Assembly (NCBI GenBank): GCA_009991595.1
Contig: JAACVK010000022.1
Location: 62,001 to 126,000, forward strand
DNA length: 64,000 nt
Reading direction: 5' to 3'
Source of the DNA: a bacterium
GTDB lineage: Bacteria > Bdellovibrionota > UBA2428
Shown here: positions 7,577 to 16,048 of the stretch, piece by piece
Position numbering within the stretch: position 1 is the first letter of the stretch
How the letters are laid out: the number at the start of each line of letters is the position of its first letter
The notes under the pieces: generated by a model
What the model saw: only the letters and a program-made list of their open reading frames with translations
The model's database searches: none
Told to the model about the DNA's origin: nothing
Translations under genes and position numbers: made by a program

Positions 7577-11132
<3,556 letters not shown>

Positions 11133-11149: not shown

Positions 11150-12283
11150 TTAAAGTCTCATTGGCATAACAACAATTCTATATCCTGGATCTTCACTACT
11201 CTTCAACAAGGCGGGTTGAAGTTTTTCACCCAGTTCAATTTCAACTTCCTCACCGTGAAGATTGTTAAGAGCTTCAATGAAAAATCTTACATTGAAGCCT
11301 GTTTTAACTTCTTCACCCTCAAAGCGAGCTGAAATTTCATCTTTAGCTTCGCCTAAATCAGGATTGTTTGTTGACAGCATAACGCTATCTTTTTTAAAAT
11401 CAAAAGTTACAACCATTGAACGGTCAGAAACTAAAAGTGCCATTCTTCTTAAACCAATAAGAAGTTCTTTTCGGTTTGCATACAAACGACTTGGCAAAGC
11501 CTTTGGAATTACTCTTTTACAATCTGGGTATTCACTATCAATAGGTCTGATCCAAAGTTTGTTACCAGAGACATTTGCTCTAATTAAGTTTTCATCACAA
11601 GTAAGTTCAAATTCTTCATCATCACAGCTTTCTAAAAGCTTTCTTAACTCTACAGCACCCTTTTTAGGGATGATGAGCCCCTTCTTCAAATCGAGATCTC
11701 CGATTTCTTCATGTGGTAATTCCATAAGAGCTAATCGATGACCATCTGTTGACGTTGTTTTAAGAACTTTTTTACCATCCTCACCAACATCTGATTCAAA
11801 ATAGATACCTGTCAAAGCGTAACGATACTCTTCAGTGCAGATACAATGTTCAGTTTGCTGAAGAAGCCTTAAGAACATCTTCGTATTCAACTTACCGGTG
11901 CTAAGTTGACCTTTTGGCGAAGTTTTAAAATGAGGGAAATTATCAGCAGGTAGTCCTAAAAGTTTAAAAACACTTTTTCCTGATCTGATTTCTACACGAT
12001 TGGCATCAATAACTTTGATGAACAAATCTTTTTCGTCATCAGACTCTTTAATGATATCGAACAAATTTTTGGCAGGGATTGCGATTCTTCCATCTTGAAG
12101 AGTTCTACATGAAACATTTGCACTGACAAAAATTTCTAGATCTGTTGCTGATATTTGTAGAACTTCTTCTTTTACATCCAACAATGCATGATTCAGGGAA
12201 GGCATAGTGTTTCGTCTTTCGACAACACTAAGAGTTTTCTCTAATCCTTTTAGAAGCTCCTTTTTATCTACATTTATTTCCAT
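11150..12283 (-). CDS. dnaN: DNA polymerase III beta sliding clamp
   Basis: Position between dnaA and recF; TSTDGHRLA, C-terminal YRIVVMPMRL. Confidence 0.96.
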   Translation of the reverse strand: MEINVDKKELLKGLEKTLSVVERRNTMPSLNHALLDVKEEVLQISATDLEIFVSANVSCRTLQDGRIAIPAKNLFDIIKESDDEKDLFIKVIDANRVEIRSGKSVFKLLGLPADNFPHFKTSPKGQLSTGKLNTKMFLRLLQQTEHCICTEEYRYALTGIYFESDVGEDGKKVLKTTSTDGHRLALMELPHEEIGDLDLKKGLIIPKKGAVELRKLLESCDDEEFELTCDENLIRANVSGNKLWIRPIDSEYPDCKRVIPKALPSRLYANRKELLIGLRRMALLVSDRSMVVTFDFKKDSVMLSTNNPDLGEAKDEISARFEGEEVKTGFNVRFFIEALNNLHGEEVEIELGEKLQPALLKSSEDPGYRIVVMPMRL

Positions 12284-12536
12284 CTTTGACCATCCAAATT
12301 GGGCATTTGCTCACGATATTACAAGCTTAGTGGCTACATTACTATAAATATTAATAGTTGTTGTTAATTATAGTTGTCTTGCCGGATATATTGAATAGAG
12401 GGACTTAAGTAACTGAAAACAAACATTAATATCTGTGGATAACTCTGTGGATAGGCAAATTGGATAACAAGGTGAATAGTGCAATTCATTCATTATCCCC
12501 AAGTTATCCACAAAACTATTCATTAGTTATTCACAG
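12284..12536. promoter_or_regulatory. putative oriC with DnaA boxes: 12434-12442 TGTGGATAA, 12446-12454 TGTGGATAG, 12493-12501 TTATCCCCA, 12504-12512 TTATCCACA, 12527-12535 TTATTCACA, and an AT-rich stretch ~12337-12380
   Basis: Exact and one-mismatch matches to TTATCCACA in both orientations in the dnaA-dnaN intergenic region next to AT-rich DNA. Confidence 0.85.
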
Positions 12537-13628
12537 GTTGTCCATCAATTGCGAGCGAATTTGACCAAGCTGATTCTTAAAAACGGAGTCTTTTTCTTGA
12601 AGATTAGAGATAAATTCAGTGCCGTGTAGAATCGTTGTATGGTGTCTGTTACCAAGCGCCTGCCCTATTGCACTACAACTCATGTTTGAAAGCTCGCGGG
12701 CTAAAGACATAACGACCTGTCTGGCTTTGGCTACAGGGGCTTTTCTAGAAGAACCTTTTAAATCTGATGCTTTAAGTGAGTAATACTGGGCTACAACCGC
12801 AATGATATTGTCGATGTTAACGATTCGTCGGTTTTCGCTGATGTAGGATTTGAGAACTTTTTTAACTAAATCAGAGGTTATCTCTACATTATAGATGGCG
12901 GCATGTGCAGCAAGTTTAGTGAGGCAACCTTCAAGTTCGCGCACGTTCGCTTTAACATAGTTACCTATTAGGTAGGCGACTTCATCTGACAAAGGAATAT
13001 TGTCTGCTTCAGCTCTAGATTTTAGAATGGCCACTCTAGTTTCAAGTTCAGGAGATTCAATGTCAGCCACCATTCCCCATTCAAATCGTGAAATGATTCG
13101 ATCATGAACATCGGCAATTTCTTTTGGATATCGGTCTGAAGTGACGACAATTTGTTTGCCTGAATCAAATAACGCGTTGAAAACATTGAAAAACTGGTCT
13201 TGAGTTGAGTGAGCTCGGGATAAAAATTGAATGTCATCCATCAATAAAATATCCACACCATTTTGATATTTTTCCTTTAATTCCGTTAGTTTAACGTCCC
13301 TTAAGGCTGAAATTACTTCTTCAATAAAGTGTTGAGTTGAGACGTAACAGACTCTTTTTGCAGGGTCTACGCTAAGTAGCCGATATCCAATAGCTTTTTG
13401 CAGATGAGTTTTTCCTAAACCGGTTTTCCCGACAATGAAAAGTGGGTTGTAAACACCTAATTTATTGGCAACCGCCATAGCAGAGGCGTGTGCAAACTGA
13501 TTGCTTTTGCCTACAACAAAATTTTCAAAGGAGTATTTAGGAGTGAGAACTTCTCCAGATACCGTTTTGACGAGCTTTTCTGAAGGGCTTTCGAGGCTAT
13601 CTTGTAGCGAATTGAACATTTCTGTCAT
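12531..13628 (-). CDS. dnaA: chromosomal replication initiator DnaA, short form lacking domain I
   Basis: FENFVVGKSNQFAHA, GKTGLGKTH, LLMDDIQFL, NVRELEGCL, domain IV GNRHHTTILHG; 365 aa. Confidence 0.95.
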   Translation of the reverse strand: MTEMFNSLQDSLESPSEKLVKTVSGEVLTPKYSFENFVVGKSNQFAHASAMAVANKLGVYNPLFIVGKTGLGKTHLQKAIGYRLLSVDPAKRVCYVSTQHFIEEVISALRDVKLTELKEKYQNGVDILLMDDIQFLSRAHSTQDQFFNVFNALFDSGKQIVVTSDRYPKEIADVHDRIISRFEWGMVADIESPELETRVAILKSRAEADNIPLSDEVAYLIGNYVKANVRELEGCLTKLAAHAAIYNVEITSDLVKKVLKSYISENRRIVNIDNIIAVVAQYYSLKASDLKGSSRKAPVAKARQVVMSLARELSNMSCSAIGQALGNRHHTTILHGTEFISNLQEKDSVFKNQLGQIRSQLMDNL

Positions 13629-13695
13629 TATTTTCCTAACCTTTGAGTTCTTTGTTGAAAAGCATCCACTAGTTGTGGAATAACCCTTAGCCTAT

Positions 13696-13857
13696 ATGAA
13701 ACGCACATATCAACCGAGTCGTTCAAAAAGAAAACGTGAGCATGGCTTCCTAAAAAGAATGGCCAGTCCAGGCGGACGAAAGGTGCTTAGCGCCCGACGT
13801 CGAAAAGGTCGCAAGAGGCTTACTGTAAGCGTTTCTTCTAAGACTCGAGTAGTTTAA
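13696..13857 (+). CDS. rpmH: 50S ribosomal protein L34 (not in the supplied ORF track)
   Basis: Translated by eye: [53 protein letters not shown]; directly upstream of rnpA. Confidence 0.97.
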
Positions 13858-14172
13858 ATGAATGAATACAGGCGCTTTCGACCTACGGGTCGGGGAGTTA
13901 GGAAAAGCGGTGTAGTGGTTTGCCCAATTGAGTTTGGTAGCCAGCACCGTCATATGAGACCTCTCATTGTTTCTATCCCAAGAACCTGTGGCAACTCAGT
14001 AAAAAGAAATCGATTGAAGAGAATCTTGAAACATTCTTTGAAGACCTACCTAGGTTCTCTTCCAGAAGGTAAAGGTCTATGGATACGACTATTACGCCAG
14101 CACAAAATTCAAAATCCAGTTACTCCACAGTATTGGAATCGAGTTTTAGAGCAGGCAAATTTAAGCAATTAG
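13858..14172 (+). CDS. rnpA: ribonuclease P protein component
   Basis: Position after rpmH; GNSVKRNRLKRILKHSL motif. Confidence 0.92.
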   Translation: MNEYRRFRPTGRGVRKSGVVVCPIEFGSQHRHMRPLIVSIPRTCGNSVKRNRLKRILKHSLKTYLGSLPEGKGLWIRLLRQHKIQNPVTPQYWNRVLEQANLSN

Positions 14173-14420
14173 TTTTAGACGGATTACATTTATTTTATAA
14201 GGTTTTTGTCTTACCGTTTTTGATTGCCATCTCGGGCAATCAAACGCACAGCTGTCGTTTTCATCCTACGTGTTCTGTTTATGCAAAAGATTGTATGAAA
14301 AATACGAATTTTATTTTTGCGGTTTTTTTAATTACTTGGAGACTGTTGCGTTGTAACCCATTGTTTCCATCTACTAAATACTTTGACGATGCTCCACAAA
14401 TGAGAGGTTCTCACCGATGA
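14079..14420 (+). CDS. yidD: membrane protein insertion efficiency factor YidD
   Basis: SCRFHPTCSVYAKDCM, RLLRCNPLF; between rnpA and yidC; exact start uncertain (long overlap with rnpA). Confidence 0.88.
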   Translation: MDTTITPAQNSKSSYSTVLESSFRAGKFKQLVLDGLHLFYKVFVLPFLIAISGNQTHSCRFHPTCSVYAKDCMKNTNFIFAVFLITWRLLRCNPLFPSTKYFDDAPQMRGSHR

Positions 14421-16048
14421 AAAGAAACTGGTCTATAATTATTGCTTTGATTGCTTTATTGATTGCTTATGATCTTTTTATATTGCGACCGTATAATCAA
14501 AAGCTTGCAGCTCAAAAACAAACCGAGAAAGCTGTTGAACAGAAATCAGATACAACGAATAACCTTAGCGCAATTCAAAATGAAACAACCAAAGCAGAAG
14601 CTTCTTCTGACAATGTTTCAATGAATGTTGTTACAAACGAAATTAATGAATTGAAAGAAGTAGAAACCTTGTCTCTCGGCTCAAAGAGACAAGTCCGACT
14701 TATGTCTAACGGAACATTGGTCAACGCTACATTTAATGATTATTTTCAACGAGGAACTGCAGAAAAGATCCCCGTTGAGATTTTAAAAGATGGTTTGTCT
14801 TGGAGTTCTACCAACCCAGCCGTTCAGAAGTGTTTAAGCAGTCTAAACTATAAAGGTAATTTAACTTTTAGTGGCCGTTTCGAAGGCATCACCTGCTCCC
14901 TTCAGTATCAACAGGCTTCCGAACAGGAAGGCGTTTATTCGTCGTCTCTTTCTCTTTCTGGAATCAAGTCTTTTGAAGGGACCGTATTTTGGCAGCAAGT
15001 CGCCCGATTAGGCGAAGGCAATCGTTTTGATTTCAAAATTTTAGATTTTAAGTTAGATGGAGAAACAGATGATTTACAGGGCGATAAAGTTTTTGAGACA
15101 AAAGTTTTCAAAGGAAAATTAGATTGGTCTTCTTGGGGCGATAAATATTTTACGACGATTGTTTTACCTAAGGGTAAGTTTAATCCAGACCTAGCAGTTA
15201 CTCCCATTGATGGAGAGGCTGTCGCTGAAGGCCAAAGGCGTTTTAGAATTGCATATCAATATCCGCTTGTTGATTTGGGCGAGCAAACCATGGTTTTTGA
15301 GTCTGATCTTTATATCGGCACAAAAGACATTTCTGTTTTGAAGAGTATTCGCAAAGACCTAGTAGACGCTGTGGAAATGGGTTGGTTTTCGGCAGTGGGC
15401 CGCTTTATGCTTTGGTGCTTAGAAGAACTTAACCTTTTGTTTAAGAATTTTGGCTGGTCTATTATTGCTCTAACCGTTTTAGTTCGCCTAGTCTTTTGGC
15501 CATTAAATAGAAAAGTTTTCGAATCTGGGCAAAAAATGAAGGATATTCAGCCCAAAATCGAAGCTTTAAGGAAGAAATATGGCAAAGATCGAGCGCAAAT
15601 GGAGCAGTTGAATAGAGAAATGATGGGCCTCTATAAAACTGAAAAGGTGAACCCAATGGGTTCCTGCATGCCTCTTTTACTTCAAATGCCTATATTTATT
15701 GGCCTTTATGGGTCGCTCTCAAATGCTATTGATCTTTACCAGGCCCCATTTGTTTGGTGGATTGAAGATTTATCCTATAAAGATCCGTTTTACGTTTTGC
15801 CGATCCTTTGGACGGCTTCTTTGCTGTTGATGATGAAATTCACTCCACAGCCAACAATGAATCAACCGGGAATGCCGGACATGAAAAAAGTAATGTTCGT
15901 TATGTATTTTGTCTTTGGTTTTATGGCTAAAGACTGGCCGTCGGGACTATGTCTGTATCTTGTTGTAAGTAGTTTTTTAGGTACGTTCCAGCAGTTCTTG
16001 TTCCGACGATCACAAACTAATCTTCAAACTGTTCAAGAAGGAGCATAA
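14417..16048 (+). CDS. yidC: membrane protein insertase YidC
   Basis: GWSIIALTVLVRLVFWPLNRK, MGSCMPLLLQMPIFIGLYGSL. Confidence 0.96.
   Translation: MKRNWSIIIALIALLIAYDLFILRPYNQKLAAQKQTEKAVEQKSDTTNNLSAIQNETTKAEASSDNVSMNVVTNEINELKEVETLSLGSKRQVRLMSNGTLVNATFNDYFQRGTAEKIPVEILKDGLSWSSTNPAVQKCLSSLNYKGNLTFSGRFEGITCSLQYQQASEQEGVYSSSLSLSGIKSFEGTVFWQQVARLGEGNRFDFKILDFKLDGETDDLQGDKVFETKVFKGKLDWSSWGDKYFTTIVLPKGKFNPDLAVTPIDGEAVAEGQRRFRIAYQYPLVDLGEQTMVFESDLYIGTKDISVLKSIRKDLVDAVEMGWFSAVGRFMLWCLEELNLLFKNFGWSIIALTVLVRLVFWPLNRKVFESGQKMKDIQPKIEALRKKYGKDRAQMEQLNREMMGLYKTEKVNPMGSCMPLLLQMPIFIGLYGSLSNAIDLYQAPFVWWIEDLSYKDPFYVLPILWTASLLLMMKFTPQPTMNQPGMPDMKKVMFVMYFVFGFMAKDWPSGLCLYLVVSSFLGTFQQFLFRRSQTNLQTVQEGA

Follow-up and report, generated by a model that had tools for sequence, protein, structure and literature searches.

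Can a bacterium initiate replication with a DnaA that has no domain I? The question is raised by the dnaA gene of the window, the whole 64,000-nucleotide stretch of Bdellovibrionota DNA analysed here. Domain I normally tethers DnaA protomers and brings DnaB together with DciA, and it is regarded as indispensable in living cells: E. coli DnaA without it melts oriC and cannot load the helicase. A lineage living without this domain, at an origin that looks ordinary, offers a natural experiment on the purpose of domain I and on whether its job can be transferred to another protein. DnaA proteins consisting of domains III and IV are known as laboratory constructs; here a domain-I-less DnaA occurs naturally, in two genera. 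A search of open-access full texts yielded no natural DnaA without domain I.

A DnaA without domain I

The original prediction held that this DnaA, here called DnaA1, lacks domain I, that its frame continues upstream for about 21 codons without a usable start, and that rpmH leaves no coding room for the missing part. The features concerned are:

12531-13628, minus strand: dnaA1, 365 amino acids, domains III and IV, without domain I
13548-13628, minus strand: N-terminal tail of DnaA1, 27 residues (MTEMFNSLQDSLESPSEKLVKTVSGEV), about the minimal length of a domain II linker
13629-13691, minus strand: in-frame codons upstream of dnaA1, with no start codon and a stop just upstream
13696-13857, plus strand: rpmH, divergent neighbour, leaving no room for domain I

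Each of these claims was borne out. With 365 residues, DnaA1 falls below the 399-656 of characterised DnaA proteins (PMC5448010). Its ATG start (13628) is preceded by a Shine-Dalgarno-like AGGA, the 21 further codons of the open frame (386 in all) contain no ATG, GTG or TTG, and a domain I profile searched in six frames over 13501-15000 gave no match. PF11638 (DnaA_N) matched neither DnaA1 nor, at E<=1, anything else in the genome of the window; the same model found matches in 11 of 14 control genomes.

The remainder of the protein is that of a DnaA. PF00308 places domain III at residues 28-188, preceded by about 30 residues, and domain IV lies at 272-338 (Pfam, NCBIfam), where PF08299 matches with E 4e-23 and the helix-turn-helix carries the DnaA signature. 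The TIGR00362 equivalog model scores 426.6 bits, above its cut-off of 343.9, with an alignment that begins only at model position 94 of 437. DnaA1 retains Walker A and B, sensors 1 and 2, the arginine finger and the signature of domain IV, with canonical ATPase motifs, and in the phylogenetic tree it clusters with main DnaAs. Judged by its sequence, DnaA1 looks like a descendant of ordinary DnaA that is functional apart from the missing domain. A DnaA-box origin beside the gene, one of the features by which a DnaA is recognized, is present; because another, domain I, is absent, we classed the protein as a DnaA variant rather than an ordinary DnaA.

The truncation recurs in a second genus

The family of the window, which is uncultured and belongs to the phylum of Bdellovibrio, is represented by four genomes in four genera (G000, which contains the window, and G001 to G003), all of them incomplete drafts at 66-94% completeness (90.6% for G000 and 94% for G001). 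The original prediction had advised checking relatives for the same truncation, and G001 has it at the same locus. Its dnaA runs across two contigs whose ends have 149 bases in common, and the frame opens with a TTG adjoining a divergent rpmH (MIQENYGKSFEDLKQGIEGPRGSDVRTVLGEVLTPKYSFE...) and is followed by dnaN, recF and gyrB. The encoded protein is 67% identical to DnaA1 of the window and likewise lacks domain I. The dnaN region was not found in G002 or G003, and the truncation of DnaA1 therefore rests on two of the four family genomes, each from a different genus.

We then compared the two proteins with frames from 80 related loci and from loci in about 60 genomes belonging to the phylum of the window. 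Among main DnaAs with full context in this survey, the open frame before domain III comprised roughly 90 or more residues, as against 30 in DnaA1 of the window, counted from its start codon, and no other such DnaA was truly as short; the remaining short N-termini belonged only to contig-cut frames and divergent second DnaA copies. A candidate for a second natural truncation, G197 (L183 3537-5073), was rejected, as a frameshift beside an N leaves domain I in the neighbouring frame. No relatives of DnaA1 were found in viral contigs.

The length comparison for the N-terminal tail uses a published minimal domain II linker (PMC5835720). The tail contains a short helix-like FxxLxxxLE pattern, which G001 shares as F-x-x-L-x-x-x-(L/I)-E; in two sequences, which are too few for a firm assignment, this could be a remnant of domain I helix 1 or a docking peptide. 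In the domain IV signature of both genera, HHTT replaces the usual DHTT. Within 12531-12700 the motif reads NRHHTT, in both genera, in place of (G/K)(R/K)DHTT; the oriC boxes are nonetheless canonical.

The probable origin beside dnaA1 looks ordinary

The gap between dnaA1 and dnaN has the features of a replication origin:

12284-12530: dnaA-dnaN intergenic region, probable oriC, with GC-skew switch, box cluster and 68% AT
12434-12442, minus strand: DnaA box TTATCCACA (perfect)
12446-12454, minus strand: DnaA box CTATCCACA
12493-12501, plus strand: DnaA box TTATCCCCA
12504-12512, plus strand: DnaA box TTATCCACA (perfect)
12527-12535, plus strand: DnaA box TTATTCACA, overlapping the end of dnaA1
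12284-12433: AT-rich stretch, candidate unwinding element, 69% AT, in the top 1% of 150-bp windows
11150-12283, minus strand: dnaN (beta clamp)
9957-11132, minus strand: recF
7577-10000, minus strand: gyrB

Within the window, the sign of the GC skew switches at 12-14 kb. Of the five DnaA boxes in the gap, none has more than one mismatch and two are perfect, in a genome that contains only 28 perfect boxes altogether, and the corresponding gap of G001 holds three perfect boxes. A TTAACAACAACTA stretch within the AT-rich part is common to both genomes. The Bdellovibrio bacteriovorus origin, BdoriC, occupies the same gap in the same gene cluster (PMC5124646). We conclude that the dnaA-dnaN gap is probably oriC. 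Compared with canonical DnaA systems (E. coli, B. subtilis, B. bacteriovorus), the locus is alike in its rpmH, dnaA-dnaN-recF-gyrB arrangement, in domains III and IV and in the boxes of the dnaA-dnaN gap, and differs in that DnaA1 has no domain I.

A family-specific second DnaA

The original prediction had also suggested searching the genome for a second dnaA or a separate domain I protein. The first search succeeded: one more DnaA-like gene, dnaA2, lies on a different contig of the window's genome (L148 9250-10698). Each of the four family genomes has it in a conserved context, with rng upstream and PIN/PhoH and PilZ-like genes downstream. The second search was negative, as PF11638 and a profile including the stand-alone DnaA_N proteins of other families gave no significant match in the available sequence of G000 to G003. 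The only hit, G000:C106, lies inside an epimerase-like protein and was rejected as being at chance level (E 0.12).

A profile built from the four DnaA2 sequences scores 795-867 bits within the family and never exceeds 121 bits across 237 other genomes of the phylum, which indicates that this type is specific to the family in our sample. In the tree the four proteins form one group (support 100/100) on a very long branch, and a weak affinity to the second DnaAs of f3, another family of the phylum, may reflect long-branch attraction. All four keep Walker A and the arginine finger; Walker B is degenerate (LE(D/N)), the sensor 1 Asp is lost, and EKD(P/A)S stands in the DNA-recognition signature. 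The score of DnaA2 against TIGR00362, 115.7 bits, falls below the cut-off of 343.9, so that we regard it as a DnaA-derived paralog rather than an ordinary DnaA. Neither does it qualify as Hda, with 36.5 bits against a cut-off of 194.8 for TIGR03420 and a C-terminal helix-turn-helix region present. Like Hda and other DnaA-derived AAA+ regulators, it is a diverged ATPase related to DnaA that shares the cell with another DnaA; unlike DnaA2, however, Hda has neither domain IV nor a domain-I-like N-terminus.

The N-terminal region of DnaA2 is the more variable part, with a mean pairwise identity of 34% against 49% for the AAA+ part. Compared with DnaA domain I by hhalign, it gave a score of 27.3 at a probability of 41%, a weak match, against 19.5 for the best of 100 column shuffles, and the domain I HMM applied to the G000 copy alone was not significant (E 0.32). 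These values are suggestive of a divergent domain I.

DnaA boxes also accompany dnaA2. Within about 300 bp upstream of the gene, G000 has five boxes (one perfect, the others with a single mismatch) and G001 has three, all perfect; G002 has one perfect box and a second with no more than one mismatch, and G003 has two perfect boxes and a third with no more than one mismatch. Triple clusters of perfect boxes occur in the G001 genome at oriC and at dnaA2 only, the chance expectation being about 7e-6, and other close pairs of perfect boxes in G001 to G003 share no common gene context. The possibility that the dnaA2 region is a second origin was rejected, as the GC skew does not switch there, and for the same reason we infer that the boxes are a regulatory or titration site.

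Possible routes to helicase recruitment

Engineered proteins consisting of domains III and IV (E. coli; Aquifex structures 1l8q and 2hcb) have the same domain content as DnaA1. They are laboratory truncations, whereas DnaA1 is natural and found in two genera; E. coli DnaA without domains I and II unwinds oriC in vitro but fails to support replication and is inviable in vivo (PMC5448010). By this precedent DnaA1 should need a substitute at the helicase step, and a putative recruitment route other than domain I is plausible in this lineage. We favour DnaA2 as the substitute, since it is family-specific, conserved and DnaA-derived, retains AAA+ interaction elements, possibly possesses a domain I, and has boxes at its gene.

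Our preferred reading, which we hold tentatively and at somewhat less than an even chance, is that DnaA1 binds and melts oriC and DnaA2 supplies the functions of domain I in trans. DnaA1 would bind the box cluster in the dnaA-dnaN gap and open the adjacent AT-rich DNA. DnaA2 would enter the DnaA1 filament by means of the nucleotide site and arginine finger that it has kept, display its own divergent N-terminal domain there, and so take over the tethering of DnaA protomers and the bringing of DnaB together with DciA, while the boxes upstream of dnaA2 would let DnaA1 set the supply of its partner. That the two proteins touch, that DnaA2 recruits the helicase and that the boxes are regulatory is what we infer from these patterns. 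In its full form, a naturally split initiator in which DnaA1 serves origin binding and melting and the family-specific, box-bearing DnaA2 serves both helicase recruitment and protomer tethering, the proposal is slightly more doubtful. If DnaA2 does carry the job of domain I, the pair would be a two-subunit bacterial initiator, for which the division of labour among ORC/Cdc6 paralogs is a loose comparison. Against this proposal, second DnaA copies also occur in other families of the phylum whose main DnaA retains domain I, and a paralog alone therefore does not imply compensation. The weakness of the domain I match of DnaA2, and the fact that the truncation of DnaA1 is documented in two of the four genomes, likewise count against it.

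The strongest alternative, in our view only slightly less likely, is that domain I is dispensable here: DnaA1 would melt oriC, DciA would suffice to load DnaB, helped at most by contacts to domain III of DnaA1, and DnaA2 would be either a transcription factor under DnaA control or a regulator of DnaA1 in the manner of Hda. The genomes G000, G001 and G002 encode DciA. Its DUF721 domain is predicted to resemble the N-terminal domain of DnaA, and the protein promotes DnaA-DnaB complexes (PMC5720831); in E. coli, PriC provides an example of a bypass of the DnaA-DnaB step (PMC12122000). The degenerate Walker B and lost sensor 1 Asp of DnaA2 would suit a regulator, the boxes at its gene are equally compatible with a purely regulatory protein, and no Hda-like third copy was seen in G000, so that the post may be vacant. 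DciA, a helicase partner, is also found in bacteria with full DnaA. However, domain I is retained in other genomes of the phylum that encode DciA. The DciA matches of this family are weak, at 29-40 bits compared with 41-82 elsewhere, and dispensability does not account for the coincidence of the loss with a family-specific DnaA2 whose N-terminus resembles domain I. The DciA of the window's genome (L189 2180-2479, minus strand) is a short, 99-codon frame whose PF05258 score of 29 bits is below those of other families.

It is unlikely that the helicase is recruited by an unrecognised protein, or by a domain I protein in an unassembled part of the genome, with DnaA2 unrelated to the matter; G000 is indeed incomplete and other families of the phylum have stand-alone DnaA_N proteins, but neither DnaA_N nor a stand-alone domain I matched significantly in any of the four genomes, including the more complete G001. 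Less credible still is that DnaA2 starts replication elsewhere and DnaA1 has become a regulator, for although a box cluster lies upstream of dnaA2, the skew switches at dnaA1-dnaN, the motifs of DnaA1 are canonical, and the ATPase and DNA-recognition motifs of DnaA2 are eroded. Finally, an assembly error, frameshift or wrong start concealing domain I, of which G197 is a precedent in the phylum, is contradicted by the equal truncation at the same locus in a second genus, by a six-frame search that found no frame encoding the domain, and by the divergent rpmH, and can be set aside almost entirely.

Other DnaA-like proteins in the phylum

Diverged paralogs accompany the main DnaA in families f3 and f8, as they do here; in both families the main DnaA retains domain I, and the f3 paralog differs from DnaA2 in having a clear domain I and another neighbourhood, before an xseA-like gene. 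In most f3 genomes (L155-L161) the second DnaA matches domain I more strongly than the main DnaA does, and in the loci inspected it is followed by an exodeoxyribonuclease VII-like gene.

Genomes of family f2 encode, besides a full-length DnaA, a protein of 168-225 amino acids that ends in a clear PF11638 domain I and lacks domains III and IV:

L115, 1462-2133, minus strand: f2 domain I protein
L116, 1051-1725, plus strand: f2 domain I protein
L119, 3-641, plus strand: f2 domain I protein
L123, 1459-1962, minus strand: f2 domain I protein

A stand-alone domain I protein of about 150 amino acids is also found in two f8 genomes (L130 1354-1806 and L141 1420-1854, both minus strand). Several f8 genomes (L151-L154) encode a diverged DnaA-like protein of 390-405 amino acids, in which about 66-88 residues precede domain III and the region of the arginine finger is altered; most of these genomes have an NAD-dependent deacetylase-like gene nearby.
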